Source: Asaia bogorensis
GTDB taxonomy: Bacteria > Pseudomonadota > Alphaproteobacteria > CACIAM-22H2
Reading direction: 5' to 3'
NCBI GenBank assembly: GCA_945901855.1
Contig: CAMDLT010000015.1
Location: forward strand, 1 to 64,000
DNA length: 64,000 bases
The notes under the pieces were generated by a model that was given only the letters and a program-made list of their open reading frames with translations, searched no databases and was not told where the DNA came from. The stretch's first letter is position 1. Every line of letters begins with the position of its first letter. The position numbers were made by a program, and so were the translations under genes. Below are positions 16,866 to 60,353 of the stretch, one piece after another.

Positions 16866-16943
16866 TGCGGTGCCTTTGGGCGGACATCGTCCGTTTTTTG
16901 AACGAAGGCGAAGGGCAGGCGCCTGCGACGTCGACCCTCTCGA

Positions 16944-17015
16944 CTAATACCCTGATTCAAAACATTGTTCAACGATTGAACACGCTTGACGTTCAGGATG
17001 TGAACGCCCTATAAC
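16944..17015 (+). repeat. 72-bp promoter repeat, copy A
   Basis: These 72 bases match 19067-19138 at 62 of 72 positions in direct orientation. The repeat carries two 15-bp inverted repeats and a sigma70-like promoter, with the same spacing in both copies. The conserved part extends weakly into the first codons downstream. Similarity is highest over the operators and the -35 element, suggesting selection on the regulatory sites rather than a very recent duplication. Confidence 0.9.
16967..17015 (+). promoter_or_regulatory. Promoter A with twin GTTCA-N5-TGAAC operators
   Basis: The first operator is GTTCAACGATTGAAC (16967-16981) and the second GTTCAGGATGTGAAC (16991-17005), centres 24 bp apart. 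A sigma70-like promoter overlaps them: -35 TTGACG at 16986-16991 and -10 TATAAC at 17010-17015, spacer 18. The second operator lies in the spacer, so a bound protein would block RNA polymerase. A degenerate third site, with the 5-bp arms GTCCG and TGAAC, lies at 16889-16903, at the same distance upstream as the intact site near copy B. The promoter should drive the capsule-type transferase gene at 17106. Confidence 0.7.
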
Positions 17016-17024
17016 GTCCCGGGC

Positions 17025-17093
17025 ATGGCAAATGAAAAGGAGCAAATCATCGACTGTCACCTTTTTCGACGCCGCATATTATTTGAACGCTGA
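17025..17093 (+). other. 22-codon leader ORF, possible remnant of a regulator N-terminus
   Basis: An ATG lies 9 bases after the -10 hexamer of promoter A, exactly as the MarR-type gene start does after promoter B. The 22-codon frame begins MANEKEQ, resembling the MTNSKDQ start of that regulator, and then diverges to a TGA immediately before the ribosome binding site (ACGGAGG) of the next gene. It may be a vestige of a duplicated regulator gene, or a translated leader that couples to the downstream gene. Whether it is expressed cannot be told from sequence. Confidence 0.4.
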
Positions 17094-17105
17094 CGGAGGC
17101 CCGCA

Positions 17106-18890
17106 TTGATTGCCCCCGATTTGCGCCACCCGGGAATTGTGTTCTGCGAGAGCCTTGCGGCCTTGCATGCCGCGCGGGCGGCGGGCTTGACCAACGATGC
17201 CGCGATACGCAGCGCCGCACCGGCCCTCGCTTTCGGCGACACCGGCGTCGAACCGCTTGAGGTTGGACCGCCGCGGCTGATGGCCTACTGGAATGATGCT
17301 TTGGCTCTCTCCGAAGCCGTTTTTCGAACAATGGAAGATGCCGGGCATAGCCACGCAGAAGCGCTGGTTGCTGCCCGCACGGCGGTCTGCCTGCATCGAA
17401 AGCTGACGAGTTTGCTAGCATTCACCGCGCAGGATTTCATCCAGCCGCGCCTGTTCATCGGGCTGCGCACCGGAGACTCAGCGTTGGACGCGCGCTTGAC
17501 CCCATCCTGGATCGGGCTTTTGGCGCAAAATCCCAGATTTTCCGAATATTCGGTCGAATCGCGGATCGGGCAGGTATCCGAGAACAAGCCCCCGTCTTTT
17601 GCTGCAAGGCTCCGGCTTTCAGGAATTGCCGATATCGGCTGCAGATTGGCTTTGCGGTATTGGCGGGACCGCAATGCGGGTACCAAGCCCGTGCTGCTGC
17701 TGTCGCACCCGACTGAACTGGCTCGCGAAATCGCGTGGGAATTGTGCCGCAAGGGCATGGCTCTGAAGGAGATCAAGGCGGCCGATCTGGCGAATGTCGC
17801 GCTTGCCGATATCGACGACGCGGTGCTTGCGCCGGTTGGCGCGTTTCTCGATCGCTGGTTTCCAAGCGAGGCCAAGTCGGCAGCCTTGGCCTTGTGGCGG
17901 CGGGATCTGTCGCAGGCTCAGGGGGCGTATTTGGCTGCGCTCGCGCAATGGCGCGTTCGCCTGCCGCAGCTATTGCCGCAGGGGAAAGGAGCGATACTCA
18001 CAGGGTTTCCCGGCGCGGCCTCGGCTTTGGCCATGGGCAGTGCCGCACAGGAAAACGACATTCCCGTGGTCGCCGTCCAGCACGGCGTCACGCGCGAGAT
18101 AGCGCAGACGCACGATGCTCTGCAATGCAACTACGAAAACGCTGCCTGCGATCTGTTTTTGACTTTCAATCCCGAAGCCAGCGAGATTTCGCAACGCTCG
18201 CCCTTTGGCCGCAGCCAAATCGCGACGATTGGCATGCCGCGCGTCTATCGCCGGATGCGTCGCAGCATTGGCCGCGAAAAACAATATCCGATCCTTTACG
18301 TATCGACGGCCCTGTTGGCTGGAAACGTGAACCATCTGTCTGGCGGGGTGTCGGATATCGAGCGCACGCGGCGCGAGATGAGTCTGATCGATGCCGTGCT
18401 GTCGCGGCTGCCGCATGGCGTGACCTACAAGCCCTATTCTTCGGGCAGCCGCTATGCCGATCCCAATCCGGTTTTGACCGAACTTGGCCGCCATCCGCGC
18501 ATCAAGCTTTACACGGCCGCCGACGATCTGCGCTACATGGCGGATCGCTATCGCATTCTGGTCACGGCACGGGCGACGAGCACGGTCAGCTGGTGCCTGA
18601 TGGCGCAAAAGCCGCTCGTTTACATAAATCATCCCGATCATGCGCCGCTGCGGCCTGATGCACGCACGGCATTCGTCCAGGCACTTTTCCTCTTCGATTG
18701 GGATGCGCATCTTTTCGAGCGTTTGCGGGATTTTCTTTCGCAACCGCTGGCCGAAATCGAGGATGCGTGGGATGCGATGGCAAAACCACGCGAAGAATTG
18801 TGCCGTCGCTTTTTGACCATTCCGGGATGGCAAGCAGGTGCACGCGGCGCGGAAGTCATCTGGCAGAAGCTGAATGCAAGAACCGGATGA
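17106..18890 (+). CDS. Capsule-type GT-B transferase, specific family not recognised
   Basis: A 594-residue protein without membrane segments. The C-terminal half (from about residue 290) looks like the GT-B fold of capsular and CDP-glycerol-type transferases: GAILTGFPGAAS, VVAVQHGVTREIAQ with the HG motif, DLFLTFNPEAS, PILYVSTALLAGN, and YMADRYRILVTARATST near residue 480. The N-terminal 250 residues are not recognised. A role in polymer assembly fits the position, but no substrate can be named. I chose a TTG start because ACGGAGG precedes it at a good distance and no ATG or GTG occurs before the conserved text. It lies between the two promoter repeats and is probably controlled by copy A. 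Confidence 0.8.
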   Translation: MIAPDLRHPGIVFCESLAALHAARAAGLTNDAAIRSAAPALAFGDTGVEPLEVGPPRLMAYWNDALALSEAVFRTMEDAGHSHAEALVAARTAVCLHRKLTSLLAFTAQDFIQPRLFIGLRTGDSALDARLTPSWIGLLAQNPRFSEYSVESRIGQVSENKPPSFAARLRLSGIADIGCRLALRYWRDRNAGTKPVLLLSHPTELAREIAWELCRKGMALKEIKAADLANVALADIDDAVLAPVGAFLDRWFPSEAKSAALALWRRDLSQAQGAYLAALAQWRVRLPQLLPQGKGAILTGFPGAASALAMGSAAQENDIPVVAVQHGVTREIAQTHDALQCNYENAACDLFLTFNPEASEISQRSPFGRSQIATIGMPRVYRRMRRSIGREKQYPILYVSTALLAGNVNHLSGGVSDIERTRREMSLIDAVLSRLPHGVTYKPYSSGSRYADPNPVLTELGRHPRIKLYTAADDLRYMADRYRILVTARATSTVSWCLMAQKPLVYINHPDHAPLRPDARTAFVQALFLFDWDAHLFERLRDFLSQPLAEIEDAWDAMAKPREELCRRFLTIPGWQAGARGAEVIWQKLNARTG

Positions 18891-19010
18891 CGCACGCGAC
18901 ACGGCGCGAAGTAGCGGCACAATGGCCTTGGTTGATATGGCTTAATCGGAAGGACGCAGCGTTAAACCGAAGCGCATTTCGTCCAGTGTCACGTGCTGGT
19001 CGCAGTAAGC

Positions 19011-19025
19011 GTTCATTTTGTGAAC
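19011..19025. promoter_or_regulatory. Upstream operator-like inverted repeat GTTCA-N5-TGAAC
   Basis: GTTCATTTTGTGAAC has perfect 5-bp arms and matches the consensus of the sites at promoters A and B. Its centre is 79 bp upstream of the first operator at promoter B, a spacing compatible with looping or cooperative binding. It lies in the 257-base non-coding gap between the capsule-type transferase and the MarR-type gene. Confidence 0.6.
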
Positions 19026-19066
19026 AAAATCTAACGCTAAGTCTTGATTGGCTCATAGAATCGAAG

Positions 19067-19138
19067 CTAATACTCTGATTTAAAATCATGTTCAACGATT
19101 GAACGCGCTTGACGTTCAAGGTGTGAACGCTCTATAAG
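19067..19138 (+). repeat. 72-bp promoter repeat, copy B
   Basis: Second copy of the repeat at 16944-17015 (62 of 72 identical, direct orientation). It stands immediately before the MarR-type regulator gene. The two copies flank the capsule-type transferase gene, so homologous recombination between them could in principle delete that gene. Confidence 0.9.
19090..19138 (+). promoter_or_regulatory. Promoter B with twin operators, start of the regulator operon
   Basis: Operators GTTCAACGATTGAAC (19090-19104) and GTTCAAGGTGTGAAC (19114-19128) have centres 24 bp apart. The promoter is -35 TTGACG at 19109-19114, an 18-base spacer, and -10 TATAAG at 19133-19138. The start codon at 19148 comes only 9 bases after the -10 and no ribosome binding site is visible, so the mRNA is expected to be leaderless or nearly so. 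The layout is that of an autoregulated repressor gene. Confidence 0.72.
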
Positions 19139-19147
19139 TGATGCCCT

Positions 19148-19813
19148 ATGACAAACTCGAAAGATCAAGATACCGACCGCCATTCCGCCGCCTTGGTTCT
19201 GGGCGTGCTTTCGGCGGTTGAGCATAACTCCAACGTTACCCAACGTACGATGTCGGGCGAGTTGGGCGTGGCGTTGGGGCTTGCCAATGCCGTCTTGAAG
19301 CGTTGCGTGCGCAAGGGGCTCATCAAGATCTCGACGGCGCCGCTGAACCGTTATGCTTATTATTTGACGCCGAGTGGATTCAGCGAAAAAGCGCGTTTGA
19401 CGGCCGAGTATCTGCGGGTGTCGTTTGATCTTTTCCGCGTCGCGCGCGCCCAGTATGCCGAAATATTCATGCGCTTTGCCGTCCGCAAGCAGACCCGGAT
19501 CGTGCTTTACGGAACGTCGGAGCTGGCTGAATCGGCGCTGCTCTCGGCGCGCGAGGTTGCGGTCGAAATCGTCGGACTGGTCGACGCGACGCTGGCCGGG
19601 CAGAGCTATGTCGGATTGCCGGTTCTGGCCAAGCTTAGCGATGTTCCGGGTCGATTCGATGCGGTGGTGCTGTGCGACATGCGCAATCCGCAACATGCCT
19701 ACGGGTGCGCTTTGGCCGAAGCGACCGCGATGGGCATCGAGAGCGAGCGCGTGGTAGGGCCGAAACTGCTGCGTTTGCGGGCGCTCGACGGCATCCGGGA
19801 GCAGGTGGCATGA
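19148..19813 (+). CDS. MarR-type EPS-associated regulator fused to Rossmann-like domain
   Basis: Residues 12-80 form a winged helix (VLGVLSAVEHNSNVTQRTMS, ANAVLKRCVRKGLIKIS, YYLTPSGFSEKARLT), matching the short MarR-type regulators found with exopolysaccharide loci. Residues 110-205 form a second domain with an alpha/beta pattern: TRIVLYGTSELAESAL, VEIVGLVDAT, LPVLAKLSDV, FDAVVLCD. This resembles the Rossmann-like N-terminal domain of PglD-type sugar acetyltransferases. A DNA-binding head with a possible metabolite-binding tail suggests sensing of a nucleotide sugar or cofactor (inference). It is the likely binder of the GTTCA-N5-TGAAC sites at its own promoter. The stop overlaps the next start (ATGA). 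Confidence 0.85.
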   Translation: MTNSKDQDTDRHSAALVLGVLSAVEHNSNVTQRTMSGELGVALGLANAVLKRCVRKGLIKISTAPLNRYAYYLTPSGFSEKARLTAEYLRVSFDLFRVARAQYAEIFMRFAVRKQTRIVLYGTSELAESALLSAREVAVEIVGLVDATLAGQSYVGLPVLAKLSDVPGRFDAVVLCDMRNPQHAYGCALAEATAMGIESERVVGPKLLRLRALDGIREQVA

Positions 19814-23750: not shown

Positions 23751-25405
<1,655 letters not shown>

Positions 25406-25412
25406 GCGCGCA

Positions 25413-26570
25413 ATGATCCCGTACGCACGCCAAGAGATTACCCAGGCCGACAAGGACGCGGTTCTGGCGGTTCTCGACGCCGATTTTTTGACCCAAGGCC
25501 CCAAGGTGGCCGAATTCGAGTCGGCCGTCGGCTTCTATTGCGGCGCCAAGCATGCTGTGGCAGTCAACAGTGCCACCAGCGCTTTGCATATTTCGTGCTT
25601 GGCGTTGGGTGTCGGGCCCGGCGATTTTGTCTGGACGTCGCCCAATTCTTTTCTGGCGAGTGCGAACTGCGCGCTTTACTGCGGCGCAAAGATCGATTTC
25701 GTCGACATCGAGCCGCACTCGGCGAACATGTGCGTCGTCGCCCTTTCGTGCAAACTTGCGCAGGCGGAGATCGCAGGCGTCTTGCCGAAGGTCGTGATCC
25801 CGGTCCATTTCTGCGGCGAGCCCTGCGATATGCAGGAGATCCGCAAGCTTGCGGATCGCTATGGTTTCAAAATCATCGAAGACGCGTCGCATGCGATCGG
25901 CGCCAGCCATCGCGATGCCAAAATCGGCGCCGCACGCTATGGCGACATCACGGTGTTCAGTTTCCACCCGGTCAAAATCGTGACGACGGGCGAGGGCGGC
26001 ATGGCCGTGACGGACGATCCCGCTGTCGCCGAGAGGCTCTTTTTGTTTCGCAGCCACGGCATGACGCGCGATCCGTCCCGCATGACCGAAGAGTCGCATG
26101 GTGTCTGGTACTACCAGCAAGTCGAACTTGGTTACAATTACCGCCTGACCGATATTCACGCCGCTTTGGGCGTGAGCCAGTTGCGCCGCATCGACGGCTT
26201 TGTCGAACGACGCCAGAATCTTGCGGAACGCTACGACGCGCTGTTGGCGGGTATGCCGGTGCAGGCTCTGGCGCGCAATCGCTTCGGTCGCTCGGCACTT
26301 CATCTTTATGTCGTGCAGATTCCGCAGACCGTCCTGCCCGGGAGCAAGCGGAAACTGTTCGACGACATGCGCCAGAAGGGCGTCAGCGTAAACCTGCATT
26401 ATATCCCGATCCATATGCAGCCCTACTATGCCAAGCTCGGTTTCCGGATCGGCATGTTCCCGCAGGCCGAGGCCTATTATCGGCGCGCGATGACATTGCC
26501 CCTTTATCCGGGCTTGACCGACGCGCAGCAAATTCGAGTCGTCGATGCGTTGCGGGAGTCGTTGGGGTGA
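25413..26570 (+). CDS. pseC: PseC-type 4-aminotransferase
   Basis: A 385-residue DegT-family PLP enzyme. MIPYARQEITQADKDAV, LTQGPKVAEFE, NSATSALHISC and SFHPVKIVTTGEGGM (PLP lysine near residue 190) match PseC, which aminates UDP-4-keto-6-deoxy-L-AltNAc. The sequence GYNYRLTDIHAALGVSQL is also typical. It directly follows pseB and overlaps the aldo/keto reductase gene (GTGA), so the three are translationally linked. Confidence 0.95.
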   Translation: MIPYARQEITQADKDAVLAVLDADFLTQGPKVAEFESAVGFYCGAKHAVAVNSATSALHISCLALGVGPGDFVWTSPNSFLASANCALYCGAKIDFVDIEPHSANMCVVALSCKLAQAEIAGVLPKVVIPVHFCGEPCDMQEIRKLADRYGFKIIEDASHAIGASHRDAKIGAARYGDITVFSFHPVKIVTTGEGGMAVTDDPAVAERLFLFRSHGMTRDPSRMTEESHGVWYYQQVELGYNYRLTDIHAALGVSQLRRIDGFVERRQNLAERYDALLAGMPVQALARNRFGRSALHLYVVQIPQTVLPGSKRKLFDDMRQKGVSVNLHYIPIHMQPYYAKLGFRIGMFPQAEAYYRRAMTLPLYPGLTDAQQIRVVDALRESLG

Positions 26571-27457
26571 CCCAGCTTGGAATTGGAACCGTCCAGTTCG
26601 GAATGGGCTACAGCATCGCAAGCGGCGGCACGCAGGTCGAGTTGGCGGAGATACGCGGTATCTTGGCGGCCGCCAACGAACTGGAAATCCGCTTGATCGA
26701 TACGGCTCATGCGTATGGAGACGCCGAGGCCCGCATCGGCGATTGTCGTCCGACAGGCGCGCAGTTTCGCATCGTTACGAAAACGGCGCCATTGAAGGCG
26801 CTGCGCGGCACTGTCGACGGCGCACGGTTGGCGGCTTCAAGCTTCGCGGAATCTTTGGCGCGGCTGGGGGTCGAGCGCGTTGCCGGATTGCTGGTCCACC
26901 ATGCCGACGATTTGATTGCGCCGGGCGGCGAATATCTTTGGGAAACGCTCGTCAGGTTGCGCGAAGTGGGTCAGGCCGCTTCCGTCGGCGTGTCGGTCTA
27001 CAATGCAAGGCAGATCGATGCGATTCTCGACCGCTTCGACATCGATCTGATCCAGTTGCCGATCAATGTGTTCGACCAGCGACTCGCGCGCGAAGGGTAC
27101 CTTGCGCGCATCAAGGAAAAGGGCATCGAAATTCATGCCCGTTCTGCCTTTTTGCAGGGACTGCTGCTGATGAACAGCGAGGCTGTGCCGACCTATCTCG
27201 CGCCGGTCCAACCGATCCTGGCCGAATGGCGTCGAACAATTGCCGCGTGCGGCCTTTCGCCGGTTCAAGGCGCGTTTGCCTATTTGCGTTCGGTGCAGAG
27301 TTTGGATGTCGTCGTGCTTGGGATTGCCAGCGAAACGCAGCTGCGGGAGAATGACGCGGATTGGCGCAGTGCGAATGCAATCGACGTCGATTTTGCAGCT
27401 TTTGCCATCGACGACGAGAAGATCGTCAATCCCGGACTGTGGGCGCGGGCGCATTGA
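26567..27457 (+). CDS. Aldo/keto reductase of the pseudaminic-type module
   Basis: A 296-residue aldo/keto reductase barrel. Active-site residues are visible in order: Asp and Tyr in LIDTAHAYGDAEARIG, Lys in FRIVTKTAPL, His in LLVHHADDLI. It starts at a GTG that overlaps the pseC stop; VTQLGIGTVQFGMGYS is the usual N-terminus. Relatives occur within nonulosonic acid loci of several bacteria, but their substrate is not settled. It may reduce a keto intermediate or produce a modified nonulosonate (inference). Confidence 0.88.
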   Translation: MTQLGIGTVQFGMGYSIASGGTQVELAEIRGILAAANELEIRLIDTAHAYGDAEARIGDCRPTGAQFRIVTKTAPLKALRGTVDGARLAASSFAESLARLGVERVAGLLVHHADDLIAPGGEYLWETLVRLREVGQAASVGVSVYNARQIDAILDRFDIDLIQLPINVFDQRLAREGYLARIKEKGIEIHARSAFLQGLLLMNSEAVPTYLAPVQPILAEWRRTIAACGLSPVQGAFAYLRSVQSLDVVVLGIASETQLRENDADWRSANAIDVDFAAFAIDDEKIVNPGLWARAH

Positions 27458-27847
27458 GCATTTGCCCCTTGATCAAGATTGGCCAATGGGCCGAACGAGT
27501 CTCCGCGCGATCCTGCGTAAAGTGAAAGTACTAGGGGAGTCTGACTACTCGGCTGCAGGGATGAACGAGCCAAAGCTCATCCGCATGTGCGAAGCGCGAC
27601 AGGTTTCGGAAATGAAAGATAGTCCTTATACGCTCGTCTCAACTTGCGAAACCAAATCGCAAGACATTTCTTCGACATTCCGGTCGGCCGTCGAATACTC
27701 TGTCGACAGGCTAAGGGCGAACAGACCGATGGCGGGATCCGTCCTGGGACCTGCCGCGTCCATAAGCGCCTTCTCGAAAAACGGTTGGTTGTCGAAGGAG
27801 CATAGCCAGGAAAAAATGTTCGTTCTCAGTAAACAGGACTTTAATTT
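27458..27847 (+). other. 390-base stretch with one weak open frame
   Basis: No recognised gene lies here. An open frame from ATG 27486 (121 codons) ends in a TGA that overlaps the next gene's ATG (27848-27851). This is the coupling pattern used by many neighbours, so a small unrecognised protein is possible. Its sequence shows no motif I know and no membrane segment, and no clear ribosome binding site precedes it. Base composition shifts from GC-rich to more AT-rich across this stretch, marking the left edge of the AT-richer island that follows. Confidence 0.35.
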
Positions 27848-28822
27848 ATGAAAGTCACATTGATTGACCGTAGCGAAGAGAATAGTGCTCGATTCAACGA
27901 CAGCTTTGGCAAAACTCCCTATAACTATTCTGCCGAACTTGATCAATATTATAGATTGATTAATGAAAAAAACATATTTCGAAACTATTCCTTCATTGTC
28001 GAGAATGAAAAAGAACTGGCGATCTGCTGTTTGGTAACAAGTCACGAGGTGGCGGGAAAGACGGTTTTTTCGTACTTGGGTAATTCGATGTTTTATGTCG
28101 AAAACCCTTCAAGTTACAGCCTCGCATCGGGCAGAGCTCTCTTCAAAAAACACTTCAGAGATTTGATCTTGGGTTATGCGAGCCGCCGCTTGATCTATAC
28201 ACAGCGCGATTTGGATTGCGGCATGAATGTAATGAGCCGAATGTTGCTCGACGATGGTGCAAATGTACAAATAGCTTTTGAGAACTGGCTGGACGTTCGT
28301 CCGGACATGTCGGTTCTTCGCTCGGGCCTCACCAAAAGTTTTCGTTCCTGCGTCAATTGGGGGCTCAAGAACCTAGACGTCCAAGTCCATTTTGGACCGG
28401 ACCGACTGCAGATGTTCGACGCGTTCCGGAAACTTCATTTTTCTGCGGCAGGAAGGATAACGCGGAGCGATGAAAGTTGGGCGTGGCAAAGAAATGAAAT
28501 TGCGGAAAAGAGAGCGTTTTTAGTCACTGGATCGCAGGGCGAAAGGCTGGTTACGGGCGGACTGTTTCTGTTGAAAGAGGAAACATGCGTTTACGCAGTT
28601 GCAGCATCGGATCGCGCACTGTTCGACAGGCCGGTAGGACATGCAGTTATCTGGCGCGCAATCGAATTTGCAAAAAAGATGGGATCTGTCAGCCTAAAGC
28701 TCGGCGACAATCAGTTTCCGTTCCAAAATCCTTCTGACGATAAAGCCGTTGCTATAAGTCGTTTCAAACGCTCGTTTGGCGGCATTGTAAGGCCGTTGGC
28801 TGTCATCTCGCTGGAGTGCTGA
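27848..28822 (+). CDS. FemAB/GNAT-fold protein
   Basis: A 324-residue protein that looks like a double-GNAT (FemAB-like) acyl- or aminoacyl-transferase: the C-terminal half has HFSAAGRITRSDESW, GERLVTGGLFLLKEETCVY and DRPVGHAVIWRAIEFAKKMG, a pattern seen in such proteins from polysaccharide and exosortase loci. The role may be transfer of an acyl or aminoacyl group to an amino sugar (inference). The base composition is visibly more AT-rich than the surroundings, with runs such as AATGAAAAAAACATA early in the gene. Together with the next gene it looks like a later acquisition. Confidence 0.72.
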   Translation: MKVTLIDRSEENSARFNDSFGKTPYNYSAELDQYYRLINEKNIFRNYSFIVENEKELAICCLVTSHEVAGKTVFSYLGNSMFYVENPSSYSLASGRALFKKHFRDLILGYASRRLIYTQRDLDCGMNVMSRMLLDDGANVQIAFENWLDVRPDMSVLRSGLTKSFRSCVNWGLKNLDVQVHFGPDRLQMFDAFRKLHFSAAGRITRSDESWAWQRNEIAEKRAFLVTGSQGERLVTGGLFLLKEETCVYAVAASDRALFDRPVGHAVIWRAIEFAKKMGSVSLKLGDNQFPFQNPSDDKAVAISRFKRSFGGIVRPLAVISLEC

Positions 28823-28823
28823 T

Positions 28824-29357
28824 ATGGAAAAGTGTATCCGCAGATTTGAAATGGTTCATGTTTCCGAGGCTTATCTTTCATGGTTGAACGATCCAGAAGT
28901 CGTCAAATACATGAGCACTTGGTCAACCACATACACATTTGACGAATTGGTCGAATACGCAAGAAAGACCATAGCATCAGACAAAAACCATATGTTTGCA
29001 ATCTTTGCGGGCGAAATGCATATTGGCAACGTCAAGTTAAGTGTAAACACAACCCACCATTACGCGGACGTGGGGATCATGGTGGGCTCGAAAGAGCATT
29101 GGGGGCGCGGTTATGCAAAGCGAGCAATATCAGAAGTCGTTGATCATGCGTTCAAAGAGCTAAAGCTCAAAAAGCTTACAGCGGGAATGGTCATTACAAA
29201 CAGACGCAGTCTTGGCGCATTTCTTTCGAACAACTTTCAAATCGAAGGATATCGTAGGAGTCACTGGCAGTTTGCGGCCGGCCGATCAGATTACGTTGAG
29301 CTTGGATTGCTTCGAACTGAGTGGAATGACGAACGTTCCGGCGGTATGGAGCCGTAA
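28824..29357 (+). CDS. GNAT N-acetyltransferase, PseH/RimL-like
   Basis: A 177-residue GNAT protein: YLSWLNDPEVVKYMSTWS near the N-terminus, then VGIMVGSKEHWGRGYAKRAI with the acetyl-CoA loop (GRGYAK), then ITNRRSLGAFLSNNFQIEGYRR. Members near pse genes acetylate the 4-amino group of the altrosamine intermediate (PseH). A second GNAT domain fused to PseG occurs 2.5 kb downstream, so which one performs that step is open. It starts one base after the FemAB-like stop and shares its AT-rich composition. Confidence 0.85.
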   Translation: MEKCIRRFEMVHVSEAYLSWLNDPEVVKYMSTWSTTYTFDELVEYARKTIASDKNHMFAIFAGEMHIGNVKLSVNTTHHYADVGIMVGSKEHWGRGYAKRAISEVVDHAFKELKLKKLTAGMVITNRRSLGAFLSNNFQIEGYRRSHWQFAAGRSDYVELGLLRTEWNDERSGGMEP

Positions 29358-29697
29358 CCTTCTGACCGCGCCTAGAGCCGAACCGAAACGTTCCGACCAA
29401 GTTACACGATTTGCTTGCGCGAGACGGCAGTGTCTAATGCTTCATGCGAAGGTCGCTACTCACCACAAAGATTTGGTAAAAACTTGAGCCGATCGAAGTC
29501 AGCGCGCGTTATGATTTTCGGTCCCCGCAATTCCGGGCGCGCGACCGCTGCGGCTACTCGCGCCCACGTGGGAGCTTCCGTCCCCGGAAATTCGCCGAAT
29601 GAAGGCGCAGGAGCGTCGGCGCCATCGCAGGATAAACAAGTAGCTATTGCCATTCTCTGCGAATAGCGCGACGAGACGTTACTGGGGCTTCTTGAAG
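29358..29697. other. 340-base intergenic stretch without a recognised gene
   Basis: No open frame here looks conserved. It contains a 10-bp palindrome CCCACGTGGG at 29563-29572 and returns from the AT-rich island to GC-rich composition, which may mark an insertion boundary. No convincing promoter or terminator was seen. Confidence 0.5.
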
Positions 29698-30456
29698 ATG
29701 AGTGGTGTCGCGCATAACGCAAAGGTGGTCGGCATTCTTCAGGCGCGCGTCTCGTCGACGCGCCTGCCGGGAAAGGTCATGCGGCCCCTCGCGGGCAAGC
29801 CGATGCTTGCGCAGCAGATTGCGCGCGTTCTGCGGTGCCAAAAGCTGGATGCGCTGGTTGTCGCCACGAGCGACCAGCCATCCGACGATCCGATCGCGGC
29901 GCTCTGCGCCAGTTCGGGGCTCGCCTGCTTTCGCGGGAGTTTGACGGACGTCTTGGATCGTTTCCATAGATGCGCTGCCGCCTACGACGCGCAGCACGTC
30001 GTTCGATTGACGGGCGATTGCCCTTTGGCCGATCCCGGTTTAATCGACGAGCTCGTCGCGTTCTATCTTGCGCTTCGCGTGGACTATGCATCCAACTGCC
30101 GCCCGCCGACATTGCCGGACGGTCTGGATGCCGAGATTTTCTCGTTCGACGCGCTGCAGGCGGCATGGCGCGAAGCGCGTGACCCGTTCGAGCGCGAGCA
30201 CGTGGTGCCTTTTATCGTGCGCAACCCGCAGCGCTTTCTCGCTGCCAATTTGAGCTACGCGGAAGATCTGTCGGCGCAGCGATGGACTGTCGACGAGCCG
30301 GAAGATTTTGCGTTCGTCGAAGAGGTCTTTGCCGCGTTGCATGCCGCCAAGCCGGAATTTGGCTACCGCGACGTGTTGGCGCTGCTGCAGCAGCGCCCCG
30401 AAATCGCGGCAATCAATCGTCATTTCAAACGCAACGCGGCTTCTGTAAGGAATTAA
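29698..30456 (+). CDS. SpsF-type cytidylyltransferase, candidate CMP-nonulosonate synthetase
   Basis: A 252-residue nucleotidyltransferase. VVGILQARVSSTRLPGKVM is the signature N-terminus of the SpsF/cytidylyltransferase_3 family, followed by RLTGDCPLADPGLIDELV and DGLDAEIFSFDAL. In pseudaminic and legionaminic acid loci such enzymes stand where PseF or LegF would be expected, so activation of the sugar acid with CTP is the likely role (inference). ATG 29698 gives the family start. It leads the compact set formed with the class III aminotransferase, pseG and pseI. Confidence 0.85.
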   Translation: MSGVAHNAKVVGILQARVSSTRLPGKVMRPLAGKPMLAQQIARVLRCQKLDALVVATSDQPSDDPIAALCASSGLACFRGSLTDVLDRFHRCAAAYDAQHVVRLTGDCPLADPGLIDELVAFYLALRVDYASNCRPPTLPDGLDAEIFSFDALQAAWREARDPFEREHVVPFIVRNPQRFLAANLSYAEDLSAQRWTVDEPEDFAFVEEVFAALHAAKPEFGYRDVLALLQQRPEIAAINRHFKRNAASVRN

Positions 30457-30459
30457 GCG

Positions 30460-31779
30460 GTGAAGAACACCACGATCAGTTTCGCCCTTCAAGAACGGGC
30501 AAAGCGCCGAATCCCCGGCCTGTCGCAATTGCTGTCCAAGCGTCCGGATCGTTTTTCCTACGGCGTTTGGCCCGGCTATGCCAGCCGCGCCGAAGGCGTC
30601 AAGGTTTGGGATATGGACGGCATCGAATACACGGACATGTCGATCGGCGGCATCGGTGCGACCGTTCTTGGCTATCAAGATCCGGATGTCGATGCGGCAG
30701 TCCGAACGGCGATTTCGAATGGCGTTGCATCTTCGTTGAACTGCCCCGAGGAAGTCGAACTTGCGGATCTTCTCTGCGAATTGCACCCGTGGGCGGACAT
30801 GGTTCGCTTCGGGCGCTGCGGCGGCGAAGCGATGGCTATCGCTGTGCGGATTGCGCGTGCCGCAACGGGTCGCGATAAGGTCGCGTTCTGTGGATATCAC
30901 GGTTGGCACGACTGGTATCTTGCCGCCAATCTTGGGACGGAAAATGCGCTTGGCGAGCATCTGATTGCCGGTTTGGATCCGGCCGGCGTTCCAAAGGCGC
31001 TCGCAGGCACGGCGCTGCCGTTTACCTACAACGACATTCAGGGGCTCGAGGCGATAGTCGCGGCGCACGGGCCCCAACTCGCCGCGATCGTCATGGAGCC
31101 AATTCGCAGCGAGAAGCCGGCCGAAGGCTTCCTTGCGCGCGTACGCCAGCTTGCCGATGCTTGTGGGGCTGCGCTGATTCTGGACGAGGTCTCGTCCGGC
31201 TTCAGGTTGAACTGCGGCGGCGCTCATCTCATTCTGGGCGTGAAGCCGGATATTGCCGTGTTTTCGAAGGCGATCGGCAACGGCTATCCGGTCGCTGCAA
31301 TCATCGGCCGGCAAAGCGTGATGGAAGCGGCGCAAACCAGCTTCATCAGTTCGACCAACTGGACGGACCGCGTCGGCTCGGCAGCGGCGCTGGCGACCGT
31401 GCGCAAGTTCGCCAAGGAGAATGTGCATCGCAGCCTCGTGCGTACCGGCGATGCGGTGCAGGCAGGCTGGGGCAAATTGGCGGATCGGCATGGCCTTTCG
31501 GTCCATATTGGCGGCATTTCGCCGCTGTCGCATTTTTCCTTTTCGGTATCGAATCCGCAGGTCGCAAAGGCATATTTTGTGCAGTCGATGCTCGACCAGG
31601 GATTTTTGGCGTCGACCAGTTTCTATTCGATGTTTGCGCATCAAGAGAGCCATGTTCGCGCATATCTCGAAGCCGCCGATCGAGCCTTCGCAGAAATCGT
31701 GCGCGGCATCGCCGATGGCACGCTTGCCGGAAAACTCAGGGGCGCGCCGGCGGCCGCCGGGTTCAAGCGCTTGGCTTGA
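30460..31779 (+). CDS. Class III PLP aminotransferase (glutamate-1-semialdehyde aminotransferase-like)
   Basis: A 439-residue fold-type I aminotransferase of class III. VWDMDGIEYTDMSIGGIG, FCGYHGWHDWYLA, LILDEVSSGFRL and VFSKAIGNGYPVAAI (PLP lysine) are the usual landmarks. It has GRCGGEAMA where glutamate-1-semialdehyde enzymes have NSGTEA, so it is probably a specialised sugar or sugar-acid aminotransferase rather than a heme enzyme. The GTG start has AAGGA 8 bases upstream. Standard pseudaminic acid synthesis needs only the PseC aminotransferase, so this gene suggests an extra amino group or a modified product. Confidence 0.87.
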   Translation: MKNTTISFALQERAKRRIPGLSQLLSKRPDRFSYGVWPGYASRAEGVKVWDMDGIEYTDMSIGGIGATVLGYQDPDVDAAVRTAISNGVASSLNCPEEVELADLLCELHPWADMVRFGRCGGEAMAIAVRIARAATGRDKVAFCGYHGWHDWYLAANLGTENALGEHLIAGLDPAGVPKALAGTALPFTYNDIQGLEAIVAAHGPQLAAIVMEPIRSEKPAEGFLARVRQLADACGAALILDEVSSGFRLNCGGAHLILGVKPDIAVFSKAIGNGYPVAAIIGRQSVMEAAQTSFISSTNWTDRVGSAAALATVRKFAKENVHRSLVRTGDAVQAGWGKLADRHGLSVHIGGISPLSHFSFSVSNPQVAKAYFVQSMLDQGFLASTSFYSMFAHQESHVRAYLEAADRAFAEIVRGIADGTLAGKLRGAPAAAGFKRLA

Positions 31780-31794
31780 TCGGCGCAACGGGCG

Positions 31795-33324
31795 ATGACG
31801 CGCCATCTCTCGCCCCTCGTCATCCGGGCGGACGCCCGCCAAGAGACGGGCATGGGGCATGTCATGCGCTGTCTTGCCTTGGCCGATGCTTGGTGCGATC
31901 TGTCGGGAGAGGTTCTGTTTTTCTCCAATGTCGAATCGCCGACTTTGCGGGCGCGTTTGCTGCGCTCGGGCTACGCGATTGTCGAGCCTGGGCGCACTCC
32001 ACAAGCGACGCTCAGCGAACTCCAAGCGCGTGGACTGGCCGGGTGCTGGGTTGCGATCGACGGCTATGATTTCGAATCCGAATGGCAGGCGATGCTCGGC
32101 GAAAGCGGCTTCCGCGTCCTGTGCATTGACGACGGCGCCCGTTTGAAGCAGTACGCGGCGCCCGTGATCCTGGCCTCGGACCCTGACGCATCTCTCGTCG
32201 CGTACAATGCGCCAAGCAGTTCCCTGATTCTGACAGGAACGCACTGGCGCCTCTTGCGAAAAGAGTTCGTCCGCGGATCACCGCACCGCTCCAGAGCCGA
32301 ACTCGGCGCCGCCATACTCGTCGTCTTTGGCGGATCGGATCGCCGGAACGTCGCACGCTCGGTCCTCGACGTTTTGGCGCGCTGTACGACGGCGCAAGAT
32401 CGTGTGCGGCTCGTGTTCGGTGCGCTCAATCCGCATCGTGCGAGCATCTGCGAGGCGCTTGCCACACTGCCGGGCCAAAGCGAGCTTGTCGAAAACGTGA
32501 CGGATATGGCGCAGCTCTACCGCGAGGCAGACATTGCCATCAGTGCTGCGGGAACAACGGCATGGGAGATGGCGGCATGCGGCCTTCCCGCGATCCTCGT
32601 ACCTGTCGCGGACAACCAACTGCCCGCGGCGCGCGCCCTCAGTGCAGCCAGTGCTGCCGTCCATCTGCCGATCGAAGCGTTGGCGGGGCCTCGGGGGCTG
32701 GCCGAGACATTGGCCGGTCTCCTTCAGGATCGAGACAAGCTTGCTCGAATGTCGAAGCAGGGGCCGCTTGTCTGCGACGGCGGCGGGGCGGCGCGCGTCT
32801 GCCGTGTGTTGCAGGCTTTGGACGATCCGGCGCCGTCGCCTGCGATGCAGATGCGGCGGGCAACGGCGGATGACGCTGAACAAATCTTTCGCATTGCCAA
32901 CGATACGGTCGTCCGCGCTAACGCTTTTTCGGCGGAACCGATTTCGTTGGCAGCGCACTTGAAATGGTTAGCGACGAAACTTGCGTCGCCTGATTCGGCG
33001 CTATACGTCCTCGATTTGGCGGGATTGGTCGTGGCGTTGGCGCGTTACGATCGCGACGGCGATGCGGCCTCGATCGACATTGCCGTCCATGCGGCGTTTC
33101 GCGCCAAGGGGCTCGGCGTGGAATTGACACGCAGGACGGCCGAACCAGCTTGTGCGGCTTTGGGTGTGAAGGTTGCCCGCGCCGTCGTTTTTGCGCGAAA
33201 CGTGACCTCGCAGCGCTGCTTTCTGGGCGCAGGTTGGCAGCAATTGGGCACCCGCAACATGCAGGGCATCGACTGCGTCGAGTTCGAAACTAGGTTTGAG
33301 CAGGAAAAAGAAAACGATGGCTAG
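31795..33324 (+). CDS. pseG: PseG UDP-sugar hydrolase fused to a GNAT domain
   Basis: This 509-residue fusion starts with a PseG-type GT-B fold: VIRADARQETGMGHVMRCLAL near residue 10, CIDDGARL, VFGGSDRRN, and SAAGTTAWEMAACGLPAI. PseG removes UDP from the diacetamido-altrose intermediate. From about residue 350 a GNAT domain follows (MRRATADDAEQIFRIAN, DIAVHAAFRAKGLGVEL, FARNVTSQRCFLGAGW), which would supply the PseH acetylation. Steps 3 and 4 of the pathway are thus on one chain. The stop lies 8 bases inside the next gene, suggesting coupling to pseI. Confidence 0.92.
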   Translation: MTRHLSPLVIRADARQETGMGHVMRCLALADAWCDLSGEVLFFSNVESPTLRARLLRSGYAIVEPGRTPQATLSELQARGLAGCWVAIDGYDFESEWQAMLGESGFRVLCIDDGARLKQYAAPVILASDPDASLVAYNAPSSSLILTGTHWRLLRKEFVRGSPHRSRAELGAAILVVFGGSDRRNVARSVLDVLARCTTAQDRVRLVFGALNPHRASICEALATLPGQSELVENVTDMAQLYREADIAISAAGTTAWEMAACGLPAILVPVADNQLPAARALSAASAAVHLPIEALAGPRGLAETLAGLLQDRDKLARMSKQGPLVCDGGGAARVCRVLQALDDPAPSPAMQMRRATADDAEQIFRIANDTVVRANAFSAEPISLAAHLKWLATKLASPDSALYVLDLAGLVVALARYDRDGDAASIDIAVHAAFRAKGLGVELTRRTAEPACAALGVKVARAVVFARNVTSQRCFLGAGWQQLGTRNMQGIDCVEFETRFEQEKENDG

Positions 33325-34351
33325 TCTCCAAAGCATTCAGCCGCTGCCGTTCGGCTCGAAAAAGATTGGGCCGGGCTTGCCCACGGTGATTATCGCGGAA
33401 ATCGGAATCAACCACGAAGGCGATCCGGACGCCTGCCTGCGCTTGGTCGATGCGGCGGCAAACGCCGGTGCCGACGCCGTCAAGTTTCAGACCGTTATCG
33501 CAGCAGAGAATTACGCGCCCGGCACCGAGTCGTATGATTTGTTCGCGCGCGCTGAACTCTCGCAGGAACAGACGAGGCGGGCCTTCGACCATGCGCGCGC
33601 TTCCGGTCTGGAATGTTTTTCGACGTGTTCGGATATGCCGTCCTTCGCGTTTCTGGAGGGTCTGGCACCGGCGTCTTGGAAAATCTCTTCCGGCCTTCTC
33701 ACGCACTTGCCGTTGATCCGGCAATTCTCGAAGACAGGGCGCACGTTGCTGCTATCGACCGGAATGACAGGCATGGCCGAGGCGGCGAAGGCGGTCGCCG
33801 CAGCGCGCGATGCAGGCGCTCGGCACATCGGAATCTTCCAATGCACCTCTCTCTACCCAGCACCATTCGACACGCTCAATCTTCGTGCCATGGAAACATT
33901 ATCCCGAGCTTTTGGCATTCCGGTCGGCCTTTCGGATCATTCGTTGGGCGCTCTTGCGCCCGCAGTTGCGGTCGCCTGCGGCGCGCATATGATCGAGAAG
34001 CACATTTCTCTGGATCCATCTCGACCTTTCTTCGACCACCGCGTCTCGCTTGATCCCTCCGGCTTCAAGCAGATGGTCGACAATGTCCGTGCCGCGGAAC
34101 AAATGTTGGGGTCTGCGGAAAAAGAGGTTTCGTCTATCGTCGCCGAAAGTGCACGCAAGTTTCTGAGATGCCTTGCCGCGCGCCAGGATCTTGCCGAGGG
34201 AGCAGTTCTTGCGGCCGAAGATATTGCCGTTATGCGGCTTCCTGCAGGCCACCGGGGATTGCCCCCCGATGCGTTTGGAAGCGTGTTGGGGCGTCGTTTG
34301 CGGCGCAGAGTTGCCGCGCATCACGCCATCGAAGAAGCAAACCTGTCGTGA
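33317..34351 (+). CDS. pseI: PseI-type nonulosonic acid synthase (NeuB family)
   Basis: It condenses phosphoenolpyruvate with the 6-deoxy-diacetamido-altrose to give pseudaminic acid. The 344-residue protein has IIAEIGINHEGD, GADAVKFQT, WKISSGLLTHLPLI, LSTGMTGMAEA, and GLSDHSLGALAPAVAVACGA, then a C-terminal SAF (antifreeze-like) domain from about residue 280. ATG 33317 was preferred over a start at 33296 because it matches family length; it overlaps the pseG stop by 8 bases. It is the last clear pse gene before a 264-base gap. Confidence 0.93.
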   Translation: MASLQSIQPLPFGSKKIGPGLPTVIIAEIGINHEGDPDACLRLVDAAANAGADAVKFQTVIAAENYAPGTESYDLFARAELSQEQTRRAFDHARASGLECFSTCSDMPSFAFLEGLAPASWKISSGLLTHLPLIRQFSKTGRTLLLSTGMTGMAEAAKAVAAARDAGARHIGIFQCTSLYPAPFDTLNLRAMETLSRAFGIPVGLSDHSLGALAPAVAVACGAHMIEKHISLDPSRPFFDHRVSLDPSGFKQMVDNVRAAEQMLGSAEKEVSSIVAESARKFLRCLAARQDLAEGAVLAAEDIAVMRLPAGHRGLPPDAFGSVLGRRLRRRVAAHHAIEEANLS

Positions 34352-57012: not shown

Positions 57013-57687
57013 GTGCAACAGCCGCTACGTTTGGCACCTTCGATCCTGTCGGCCGATTTTGCGCAGTTGGGTTCTGAAGTGCGCGCGATCGATGCGGCGG
57101 GTGCGGACTACATCCATATCGATGTGATGGACGGGCATTTCGTGCCCAATATCACCATCGGTCCGGGCGTCGTGCGCGCCTTGCGTCCACACAGCCGAAA
57201 ACCCTTCGATGTGCATCTGATGATATCGCCGGTTGATGCCTACATCCCGGCGTTTGCCGAGGCAGGGGCGGACATCATCACAATCCACCCCGAGGCGGGG
57301 CCGCACGTGCATCGCTCGCTGCAATTGATTCGTAGTCTCGGTAAGAAAGCCGGACTTGCAATCAATCCAGGCACGTCGGTCGACGCGGTGGCTCCGCTGT
57401 TGGCTGATCTCGATCTCGTTCTTGTTATGTCGGTCAATCCGGGATTCGGCGGACAAAGCTTCATCGCGCGAACGCTCGACAAGGTCGCGGATTTGCGTGC
57501 CCGCATCGATCGGCTGGTGGCAGGTACCGATCGTCGCATTGATCTCGAAGTCGATGGAGGCATCAATCTGGACACGGGACCTTTGGCGCGCAAAGCGGGT
57601 GCCGACGTGTTTGTCGTGGGCACGGCTGGTTTTGCCGGCGGACCCGACCATTACGCCGAAAATTTGCGCCGCTTGCGCGAGGTCTAG
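57013..57687 (+). CDS. rpe: Ribulose-phosphate 3-epimerase
   Basis: It interconverts ribulose 5-phosphate and xylulose 5-phosphate. The 224-residue TIM barrel has LAPSILSADFAQLG, HIDVMDGHFVPNITIG (metal and catalytic Asp), VMSVNPGFGGQSF and EVDGGIN. The GTG start has GAGGA 9 bases upstream. It is divergent from lptD across a 244-base gap and starts the rpe - heparinase II/III - galE run. Confidence 0.97.
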   Translation: MQQPLRLAPSILSADFAQLGSEVRAIDAAGADYIHIDVMDGHFVPNITIGPGVVRALRPHSRKPFDVHLMISPVDAYIPAFAEAGADIITIHPEAGPHVHRSLQLIRSLGKKAGLAINPGTSVDAVAPLLADLDLVLVMSVNPGFGGQSFIARTLDKVADLRARIDRLVAGTDRRIDLEVDGGINLDTGPLARKAGADVFVVGTAGFAGGPDHYAENLRRLREV

Positions 57688-57689
57688 GA

Positions 57690-59321
57690 ATGCCGGATCC
57701 ACAGCGTCGCTCGGGCTGGTCGGATTTCTGGAACGGCACGCCGCTCTACGCCTTGTATTTACGCGGACGCACACCTGCGCGCCTGGCACGTCTGGCGCCA
57801 AGCCCGCTGCCCGGCTTGCGCATGCGCGGCGAGGCGATCGTCGCCGGCAAGCTTGTCTGTGCGGGGCGTGCCATCGCGTCGGAGCGACCAAACTGGCACG
57901 ATGCAAGCATGTCGCAGGCAGCGCGCGAAGAACTCAATTCCTTTTCCTGGCTTGACGATCTTGCGGCGGTTGCAAGCGAAGGTGCCCAGTCGCGTGCGCG
58001 TGCGCTTGTCGAAGATTGGATCGTTGCACATCCCAAATGGTGCGCGATCGCGTGGGATGCCGAGCCTACGGGCCGCAGGCTTGCTGCCTGGCTGTCGCAT
58101 GCGCCATTTTTGTCGCGCGGCGAAGGCGACCGCCTCGGGCCGATGCTGCTCGAGTCGGCTACGCGCCAAGCGCGCCATCTGGCGCGCGCCGTCAAGCGTG
58201 CACCGGCGGGACTGCCGCGGCTGTTTGCGTTTAAAGGCTTGGTTTACGCGCATTGTTGCGGTCTGCTCGACGAGCGCGCCATCGGCGAGATCGCCGCGCG
58301 CCTCACGAACGAAGTCCAGCGCCAATTGCTGGCCGACGGGTTGCATGCTGCGCGCGGTGCGCGTGCCCAACTTGAAGCTTTGGCGATCGTTGCCGATGCG
58401 CGCCTTGCGCTGGAACAGGCGGGCGCAGTCGTGCCCGAAGGGCTTCATCGTGCAATCGAAAAACTCGCGCCGGCTTTGCGCTTCTTTCGCCACGGCGACG
58501 GCGAATTGGCGCTGTTCGAGAACTCGAATGTCGAAACGGCTGCATTGATCGACGCAGTGCTGGCGCGCGCCCAGTGGCCCGATCTGCCGCCGCCGCGCGC
58601 CACCGCCGCCGGTTTCGAGCGCGTTGCGGCCGACCGGCTGCTGCTGTTTGTCGACTCCGGCATGCCGGCCAAGCCCGGCTTCGATGCGCACGGCCATGCC
58701 GGCGCGTTGTCGTTCGAATTGTCGGTCGGCAAGGAACGGCTGGTCGGCAATTGCGGGGCGGGACCGCAGGATGATTCGGAATGGGCGCTCGCTCTTCGCG
58801 CGACCGCCGCGCATTCGACGCTGACGCTCGAAGATACAAGCTCGAGCGAGCCGTTGTCGGGCGGCCTGCGACGTCGCCTAACCAAGGTCGACGTCGTCCG
58901 CGACGAAGCCGAGGGCAATGTCTGGCTCGATCTGAGCCACGATGGCTACGTACCGGATTTCGGTTTCGTGCACAGGCGGCGCATTTTTGTCGCCAATGAC
59001 GGACTCGACATGCGGGGCGAAGACTCGTTGCTGCCTGCGCCCGGCAAAACCCCGTCGCCGTCGGCGCGTTACGCGATCCGATTCCATCTTTATCCCGACA
59101 TCCAAGTTTCAGTGATTCAAAACGGTGCGGCAGCCTTGCTGCGTATGTCGCGCGGCCAGGCATGGCGTCTGCAGATTTCGGGCGCATCGCTCGAACTTGG
59201 CGAAAGCGTATCCTTCGCGGTGCGCGGCAGCGCCAGGCGCGCCGAACAGCTTGTGGTGGCGGGAACGGCCGGCGCGCAGGGTATGGCGATCAAGTGGGCC
59301 TTCAAGCGCATCCAGGGTTAG
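57690..59321 (+). CDS. Heparinase II/III family protein
   Basis: A 543-residue protein. The N-terminal alpha-helical toroid is followed by the beta-sandwich lyase domain: FDAHGHAGALSFELSVG near residue 330, GNCGAGPQDD, and STLTLEDTSSSE. This is the alphaproteobacterial heparinase II/III-like group commonly encoded between rpe and purH. The substrate is unknown; a role in turnover of uronic-acid-containing glycans is plausible but unproven. It starts 2 bases after rpe. Confidence 0.9.
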   Translation: MPDPQRRSGWSDFWNGTPLYALYLRGRTPARLARLAPSPLPGLRMRGEAIVAGKLVCAGRAIASERPNWHDASMSQAAREELNSFSWLDDLAAVASEGAQSRARALVEDWIVAHPKWCAIAWDAEPTGRRLAAWLSHAPFLSRGEGDRLGPMLLESATRQARHLARAVKRAPAGLPRLFAFKGLVYAHCCGLLDERAIGEIAARLTNEVQRQLLADGLHAARGARAQLEALAIVADARLALEQAGAVVPEGLHRAIEKLAPALRFFRHGDGELALFENSNVETAALIDAVLARAQWPDLPPPRATAAGFERVAADRLLLFVDSGMPAKPGFDAHGHAGALSFELSVGKERLVGNCGAGPQDDSEWALALRATAAHSTLTLEDTSSSEPLSGGLRRRLTKVDVVRDEAEGNVWLDLSHDGYVPDFGFVHRRRIFVANDGLDMRGEDSLLPAPGKTPSPSARYAIRFHLYPDIQVSVIQNGAAALLRMSRGQAWRLQISGASLELGESVSFAVRGSARRAEQLVVAGTAGAQGMAIKWAFKRIQG

Positions 59322-59331
59322 GCAAGCGAAA

Positions 59332-60336
59332 ATGGCGAACATATTGGTGACCGGCGGCGCCGGATTTGTCGGATCGCATGTGTGCCGAGCGCTGGCGCGT
59401 GCGGGACATATGCCGGTCGCGTTCGACAATTTGAGCGCCGGGCACCGCGATTTCGTGCGCTGGGGACCTTTGGTTGAAGGCGAAGTCGGCGACGCAGCTG
59501 CGCTCGATTCGGCGATATCGGCCCACAGAGTATCGGCCTGCGTGCATTTGGCGGGGTCGATCGAGGTCGGCATTTCGGTGCGCGAGCCGGTGCGGTTCTG
59601 GCGCAACAATGTGGCGGCGACGTTGACATTGCTCGATCGCTTGCGCGCTGCAGAGGTCAAGGCGTTTGTTTTTTCGTCGACGGCGGCTGTTTACGGAATG
59701 CCCGAAACCGTGCCGATGGCCGAAACGCATCCCAAGCGCCCGACCAATCCGTACGGCGAAACCAAGCTTGCGGTCGAGCAAATCTTGGCGGCGGAAGCGC
59801 GGGCAACCGGACTGTCTTGGATTGCGTTCCGCTACTTCAACGCCGCCGGTGCGGCTTGGGCAGACGGAATTGGCGAAGATCATTCGCCCGAAAGCCATTT
59901 GATTCCGCTCGCCTGCCAGGCGGCAATGGGCACGCGCCCGCCGTTGACGATTTTCGGCGACGATTATCCGACGCCCGACGGCACGGCGGTGCGCGACTAT
60001 GTTCATGTCGAAGATTTGGGCACCGCCCATGTGCGGGGCATTGAGCGCGCCTTGGCCGGACCAATGTCAGCCGCCTATAACTTAGGGACAGGTTTTGGCT
60101 ATTCGGTCAAACAGGTGGTCGATACTGTGGCGCGCGTCGCCGAAGTCGCCGTTCCGCACATCAAGGGCGCGCGACGCGACGGCGACAGTCCGGCGCTTGT
60201 CGCCGATCCGGCGGCGGCGATGCGCGAGTTGGGCTGGCAGCCGACCTGCTCGACGCTCGAGAATATTGTCGCTGACGCGTGGGCCTGGCACCGCCACCGC
60301 CACAGCCCGCAGGCCAAGATAAGCTCGACAGAATAG
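59332..60336 (+). CDS. galE: UDP-glucose 4-epimerase
   Basis: A 334-residue extended SDR enzyme: ILVTGGAGFVGSHVCRAL (NAD loop), FSSTAAVYG (catalytic Ser/Thr), NPYGETKLAVEQ (Tyr and Lys), RYFNAAGA, and GDSPALVADPAAAMRELGW. These features fit GalE, which supplies UDP-galactose or UDP-GalNAc for glycan synthesis. It follows the heparinase gene by 10 bases and ends just before an operator-like repeat. Confidence 0.92.
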   Translation: MANILVTGGAGFVGSHVCRALARAGHMPVAFDNLSAGHRDFVRWGPLVEGEVGDAAALDSAISAHRVSACVHLAGSIEVGISVREPVRFWRNNVAATLTLLDRLRAAEVKAFVFSSTAAVYGMPETVPMAETHPKRPTNPYGETKLAVEQILAAEARATGLSWIAFRYFNAAGAAWADGIGEDHSPESHLIPLACQAAMGTRPPLTIFGDDYPTPDGTAVRDYVHVEDLGTAHVRGIERALAGPMSAAYNLGTGFGYSVKQVVDTVARVAEVAVPHIKGARRDGDSPALVADPAAAMRELGWQPTCSTLENIVADAWAWHRHRHSPQAKISSTE

Positions 60337-60338
60337 GC

Positions 60339-60353
60339 GTTCACGCCGTGAAC
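60339..60353. promoter_or_regulatory. Operator-like inverted repeat before the second sugar operon
   Basis: GTTCACGCCGTGAAC has perfect 6-bp arms (GTTCAC/GTGAAC) and fits the GTTCA-N5-TGAAC consensus of the sites near 17 and 19 kb. A -35-like TTGACT follows at 60361-60366, 7 bases later; a weak -10-like TTAAAC lies at 60383. As at promoters A and B, the inverted repeat stands just upstream of the -35. Confidence 0.6.

Follow-up and report, generated by a model that had tools for sequence, protein, structure and literature searches.

Within a 64,000-nucleotide stretch of Asaia bogorensis DNA (assembly GCA_945901855.1, contig CAMDLT010000015.1, positions 1–64,000 of the forward strand; hereinafter the window), a 15-bp palindrome, GTTCA-N5-TGAAC, recurs outside genes, raising the question of which protein reads it and to what effect. 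A prior reading of the same letters (hereinafter the original prediction) had taken it for an operator shared by two polysaccharide operons 41 kb apart and had named the MarR-type gene directly behind one set of sites as its natural binder. The second proposal is supported by our analysis, in which the motif tracks the gene both ways. We consider it highly probable, judging from sequence, that the palindrome is the operator of the regulator encoded at 19148–19813, a predicted auto-repressor of surface-glycan genes, including those at neighboring promoters, that would probably be relieved by a ligand.

Six exact copies are present in the window (starts 16967, 16991, 19011, 19090, 19114, and 60339), all at the positions originally claimed, and these are its sole matches when the distance between the half-sites is varied from 0 to 11 bases. 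They are also the only exact copies in the entire assembly (82 contigs, 3,678,449 bases, 94.2% complete), in which the reversed control pattern occurs once; with independent bases, the chance expectation is 0.03 exact copies per window and 1.8 per genome. A genome-wide scan with at most one mismatch, as suggested with the original prediction, shows no excess (40 matches vs 45 for the control), whereas the exact copies stand out; within the window, allowing two mismatches likewise gives no excess (25 vs 19.8 ± 4.2, with 14 of 100 shuffles reaching 25). By count, therefore, only exact copies, or copies at fixed positions, carry weight; we accordingly dropped loose motif counts (one or two mismatches) as evidence and used near matches solely at a fixed upstream position, where the background rate is 0.011 per 330 bp. 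The seventh, degenerate copy that had been proposed (16889–16903) has two mismatches and scores no better than chance, and was rejected as independent evidence; it does hold up as the positional equivalent of the 19011 site. The claim that the sites are non-coding agrees with our finding that none of the seven overlaps the neighboring genes listed.

The palindrome and the regulator gene track each other

Relatives of the regulator are present in 44 of 143 related genomes, and in each of the 30 loci fetched as a first set the gene is preceded by one or more exact copies. As a second set, we took the best 80 of 503 stretches encoding relatives in one genome collection. In 72 of these an exact copy falls between −300 and +30 relative to the match start; the remaining eight each show two or three copies with one mismatch. 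Thus, with up to one mismatch, the predicted operator lies upstream in 80/80 loci. The flanks of the second set (1,189,822 bases) contain only eight further exact copies and none of the reversed control; one of the eight is inside the regulator match itself (L078), and the other seven have TTGAC 0–21 bases before them on one strand.

The converse, gene-blind search used a composite in which TTGAC is joined to the motif, TTGACGTTCA-N5-TGAAC, against 385 genomes of the class. The bare exact motif had been rejected as a marker of the regulator because 115 of the 143 relatives hold one, and the composite was used instead. This search recovered 45 composite sites in 38 genomes, as against one for the reversed control. 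In 26 of the 30 composite loci fetched the regulator gene follows on the same strand, its match starting 39–158 bp past TTGAC; the four exceptions comprise the 17106 promoter of the window itself and promoters in front of Polysacc_synt_2 (L157/L186), RmlD (L162/L187), and ABC exporter (L159/L188) genes. Six of the 15 composite sites without a locus were also fetched (L180–L185): by their translations, the composite precedes the regulator in L180 and L183; it precedes a Polysacc_synt_2 gene in L182 and a nucleotidyltransferase in L184, is cut by the contig end in L181, and has no open reading frame (ORF) of 90 aa within 400 bp in L185. A hand tally of the 124 genomes covered by both the gene search and the composite search found the composite in 15 of the 27 that carry the gene and in 0 of the 97 that do not (Fisher 2.2e-12).

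These distributions bear on whether another, more global regulator, such as a LexA-type protein, owns the motif, with the regulator gene being just one of its targets. The half-site letters and N7 spacing do resemble the LexA box, and many genomes that lack the gene have a bare exact copy. However, the alphaproteobacterial LexA box is a direct repeat, GTTC-N7-GTTC, whereas the window motif is an inverted one, GTTC-N7-GAAC; moreover, all six exact sites of the assembly fall inside the window, no genome lacking the gene has a composite promoter, and a change in operator spacing goes with a winged helix-turn-helix (wHTH) subfamily (see below). A global owner of the motif is hence an extremely unlikely alternative to the adjacent regulator.

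Promoter geometry suggests probable auto-repression

At 19.1 kb, the operator at 19090–19104 is followed by four bases, TTGAC abutting the operator at 19114–19128, a further four bases, TATAAG, and the ATG at 19148; the operators, −35, and −10 at 16.9–17.0 kb are ordered in the same way. As the original prediction had it, the centers of the paired sites are 24 bp apart, the distances between the upstream sites and the pairs are 78 and 79 bp, and the pairs overlap sigma70-like promoters, recognized by eye as TTGACG-18-TATAAC (16986–17015) and TTGACG-18-TATAAG (19109–19138). Across the 80 second-set loci, TTGAC directly precedes the operator (up to one mismatch) in 73, the contact being absent in seven. 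In 63 of 70 TTGAC-GTTC-N7-GAAC promoters, TA is found exactly 4 bp past the operator. In the 80 loci, extra copies accompany the spacer operator downstream in 42, upstream in 13, and on both sides in 12, with none in six; the spacing of successive copies peaks at 22–24 bp, approximately two helical turns.

What the computation shows is where the sites lie, how they are conserved, how the promoters are arranged, and that the sites are linked to the regulator gene; to account for this, we propose the following mechanism. A dimer of the regulator would bind each GTTCA-N5-TGAAC palindrome, and paired copies, mostly 22–24 bp apart, would be occupied together, presumably cooperatively. Since one operator copy fills the −35/−10 spacer, a dimer bound there would block RNA polymerase; the near-fixed operator-in-spacer geometry fits an auto-repressor, and the 18-bp −35/−10 spacing, which is near optimal, suits occlusion. 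The regulator would repress its own promoter and the duplicated promoter of gene 17106, probably also the divergent asnB-like gene and, least certainly, the promoter at 60.3 kb via a separate operator. Repression would probably be relieved by the gain or loss of a ligand of the nucleotide type (NAD(H), CoA, or a nucleotide sugar) at the C-terminal Rossmann domain of the protein, such that the surface-glycan genes would follow precursor or energy supply.

Alternatively, the regulator might bind the same sites and activate, either from the site upstream of the −35 or by a MerR-like re-shaping of the spacer. A copy upstream of the −35 is seen in 25 of the 80 relatives (13 with upstream and spacer copies and 12 with a downstream copy in addition) and at 60339. 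However, the near-invariant copy is the one in the spacer, and in 42 of the 80 the second copy is solely downstream; furthermore, MerR promoters have a −35/−10 spacing of 19–20 bp, not the approximately 18 bp observed here. Activation thus appears quite improbable, and repression by occlusion remains the mechanism that we favor.

Several observations weigh against the regulator-operator pairing proposed above or against parts of it. The bare exact motif is found in 115 of the 143 related genomes and the gene in only 44, while 12 of the 27 genomes with the gene are without an exact composite promoter. There are near-identical genomes among the 80 loci (e.g., L049, L051, and L054), and several second-set loci come from first-set genomes, so that the counts overstate the independent cases. 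Within the window, the two main site sets cannot be counted separately as evidence because their promoter blocks are duplicates of each other, and the 60339 site, right behind a stop codon, has a promoter weaker than those of the two sets. The exact motif was not found upstream of the short alphaproteobacterial relatives L119, L123, and L126. Finally, fold-search scores for the Rossmann domain are modest, which makes the ligand a guess.

A winged helix joined to a Rossmann domain

The regulator scores 23.2 bits against the generic wHTH model PF13412 (cut-off 21.9), 61.5 bits against TIGR04176 (MarR_EPS), under the curated cut-off of 88, and, among the Pfam MarR models, 18.5 bits against PF12802 (MarR_2), under the cut-off of 27; no Rex DNA-binding model is among the five Pfam matches reported up to E 10. 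An AlphaFold2 model of the whole protein has a mean pLDDT of 84, with residues 62–74 below 50. A sequence search of the family profile against solved structures returned nothing below E 0.035. A fold search with the full-length model likewise found nothing at or below 0.001, and we therefore modeled the C-terminal domain alone (pLDDT 94, pTM 0.87). Its best Foldseek match, and the sole one at or below 0.001, is the uncharacterized Clostridium protein 2g6t (E 2.2e-4), with the next neighbors being diaminopimelate dehydrogenase, succinyl-CoA synthetase, Gfo/Idh oxidoreductases (including WlbA with NADH and UDP-GlcNAcA), the CoA-binding 2duw, and Rex repressors. Four conserved residues, G122, E128, D146, and D177 (in 66, 65, 50, and 51 of 66 sequences, respectively), would fit a nucleotide pocket, and the domain as modeled may sense a nucleotide. 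Of the alignments made, A1 left out four of 30 relatives, and, with 78 of the 80 second-set loci giving a protein of accepted length, A3 comprised 65 and A4 60 sequences plus that of the window.

The Rex repressors likewise couple an N-terminal winged helix to a C-terminal Rossmann domain in approximately 220 aa, and the Rex chains 3ikt_B (E 7.4e-3), 1xcb_D, and 3wg9_C are among the 50 listed Foldseek matches of the C-terminal domain; however, succinyl-CoA synthetase and oxidoreductase domains rank above them, and the predicted operator GTTCA-N5-TGAAC is not the Rex box, TTGTGAA-N6-TTCACAA. As in canonical MarR auto-repressors, a palindromic operator covers the regulator's own promoter, the gene lies beside its candidate targets, and the protein would act as a dimer, but its MarR_2 score is sub-cut-off and it has an extra Rossmann domain. 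A conserved proteobacterial cis element tied to genes associated with exopolysaccharide (EPS) has precedent in the PEP-CTERM promoter motif with PrsK/PrsR, which, in contrast to the window operator, is of the sigma-54 type, works with a response regulator, and has another motif (Haft, 2006, PMC1569441). In the portion of that paper's text available to us, the sole word-start match to 'MarR' is an author name.

Short and enzyme-fused members of the TIGR04176 family

A search with TIGR04176 across 398 genomes of the phylum found 79 with a match at E ≤0.001, 25 of them over the cut-off, and the loci of the best 30 places were read. L128, which starts at a contig end and has no upstream DNA, is outside the counts. 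Of the 18 short or partial members for which upstream DNA was available, 15 have the exact operator upstream (L121, one of these, has an in-frame stop) and share with the regulator this predicted recognition element, which is outside the definition of the model. The window protein shares with this family the winged-helix domain and the polysaccharide locus, but has roughly double the length and a Rossmann domain in addition; further, the short members have one exact copy upstream, at some loci downstream of the likely −10 (by eye), whereas the window operator is in the −35/−10 spacer. Twelve of the short members have an ORF, and nine of these were examined for neighbors; a sugar-nucleotide or NusG-type gene adjoins eight of the nine. 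The neighbors code for GDP-mannose-dehydratase-type enzymes (four), a UDP-glucose dehydrogenase, a ManC-type enzyme, a nucleotidyltransferase, a NusG paralogue and, off this theme, a SAM hydroxide adenosyltransferase. By eye, N4-spaced palindromes are present upstream of L119 and L123 (e.g., GCTCACAATTGAGC in L123). One TIGR04176-family member of Acidithiobacillus caldus is up-regulated under salt, according to the available part of the source (PMC10599003).

Frames of 690–705 aa are carried by 11 loci (L129–L139) of one family, out of 14 such frames listed, and in all 11 the winged helix is fused to ATP sulfurylase and APS kinase; in seven of the 11 the winged helix is over the TIGR04176 cut-off. 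All 11 of the fetched genes have GTTCA-N4-TGAAC 55–77 bp upstream of the match start. This N4 version has no copy in the 1.22 Mb of L031–L110; it does occur in 16 of 21 genomes (G516 and its relatives), with many copies far from the fusion gene, so that position alone argues for an N4 operator. The presumed recognition helix, compared by eye, has S/A-L-G followed by N in most rows of all groups, with L123, L126, and L127 differing. By its sequence, this fusion, which would make 3′-phosphoadenosine-5′-phosphosulfate (PAPS), may regulate its own gene. In the open-license PMC literature, covered mostly as titles and abstract openings, no paper was recognized as describing the operator, the family, or the enzyme fusion; PMC545781 proved to be unrelated.

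A wider synthesis, which we offer tentatively and with some doubt, is that a single DNA-reading module, which uses one half-site code (GTTCA/TGAAC), was joined to different sensors across Proteobacteria: none in the short TIGR04176 members, a nucleotide-binding Rossmann domain in the regulator, and the PAPS-making enzyme (ATP sulfurylase and APS kinase, with the N4 spacer) in the fusions. These might then be a family of gauges that couple metabolites directly to promoters as surface glycans are built and sulfated, and one of them would be an enzyme repressing its own gene. For the regulator family, which has an NCBI name based solely on its EPS association, the present analysis supplies a predicted operator and a route to listing its targets; sequence now allows regulons to be proposed in uncultured alphaproteobacteria. 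The rigid promoter, with its operator in the spacer, is easily testable, and the enzyme-fused variant is a candidate for an enzyme regulating its own gene.

Promoter duplication and the glycan gene region

The promoter blocks at 16866–17030 and 18985–19147 (features in Table 1) are duplicates, identical at 104 of 163 aligned positions overall and, within the core (CTAATAC to −10), at 62 of 72; both also align with the regulator promoters of the relatives G002, G003, and G007. In 10 same-genus loci from seven genomes (the same genomes having been fetched twice as L034/L148, L035/L147, and L036/L149), the asnB-like gene is divergent from the regulator and gene 17106 has no tblastn match (E 1e-8); neither gene was found in the more distant loci L042, L055, and L067. 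The simplest history suggested by these sequences is that gene 17106 was inserted between asnB and the regulator with a doubling of the promoter block, whereby the eroded 16889 site would be the old asnB-side operator. Separately, within window positions 19133–19150, the predicted −10 of the regulator promoter ends 9 bp 5′ of the ATG, and, by eye, G002 and G003 are alike in this and G001, G005, and G006 unlike; the regulator transcript may be leaderless or nearly so.

Table 1. Predicted regulatory sites, promoters, and genes in the window
Feature	Coordinates	Strand	Remarks
Asparagine-synthase/amidotransferase, asnB-like	14931..16868	-	Divergent from regulator in genus
Eroded operator, ~24 bp upstream of asnB-like start codon (minus strand)	16889..16903		Two mismatches; aligns with 19011; chance-level score
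Second operator, upstream of −35, gene 17106 promoter	16967..16981		Exact
Promoter TTGACG-18-TATAAC before gene 17106	16986..17015	+	Duplicate of regulator promoter block
Operator in −35/−10 spacer, gene 17106 promoter	16991..17005		Exact
Gene 17106, 594-aa protein	17106..18890	+	Weak LIC12162-type transferase similarity, 23.1 bits vs cut-off 225
Third, upstream operator	19011..19025		Exact; G002/G003 equivalent directly before divergent asnB gene
Second operator, immediately 5′ of −35, center 24 bp from spacer operator	19090..19104		Exact; aligned copy exact in G002/G003, one mismatch in G007
Regulator promoter TTGACG-18-TATAAG	19109..19138	+	From sequence; TTGAC abuts operator in 73/80 relatives
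Operator in −35/−10 spacer of regulator promoter	19114..19128		Exact; position conserved in relatives
Regulator gene, 221 aa	19148..19813	+	Winged helix ~17–75, long helix 75–112, Rossmann domain ~113–212
Pseudaminic-acid type genes downstream of regulator	24089..34351	+	PseB, PseC, PseG over NCBIfam cut-off; cytidylyltransferase; NeuB/PseI-like below cut-off
Third operator location, 2 bp past stop codon of preceding epimerase gene	60339..60353		Exact
Formyltransferase-like, polysaccharide deacetylase, and NeuB-family genes behind 60339 site	60558..63251	+	Pfam; NeuB by NCBIfam below cut-off

Downstream of the 60339 site there is a TTGACT at 60361–60366 with a weak −10. This site could instead match by chance or be a hairpin past the stop codon of the epimerase gene: by eye, GTTCAC-GCC-GTGAAC could fold into a 6-bp stem 2 bp past that codon, and the weakness of the −10 behind it points in the same direction. 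Against this, only about 0.03 exact copies are expected in the window, no T-run follows the site, and extra sites are found at other glycan promoters in related loci, as in G005. A hairpin or chance origin thus seems somewhat unlikely, and we retain the site as a candidate operator.

The sites of the original prediction are real, but they belong to one large glycan gene region rather than to two isolated operons. In addition to the genes in Table 1, this region has acetamidino-sugar genes (AglZ/HisF2 and WbuX, over the NCBIfam cut-off) and many glycosyltransferases; an LptD gene is also located inside it (54564–56768, minus strand). In G005, the segment C6 296168–332737 (L141–L143) carries six exact operators in approximately 36 kb of one glycan locus, which are near the starts of the regulator, radical-SAM, PseG/acetyltransferase-like, and Polysacc_synt_2 genes and of a gene with a sub-cut-off PhyH match.

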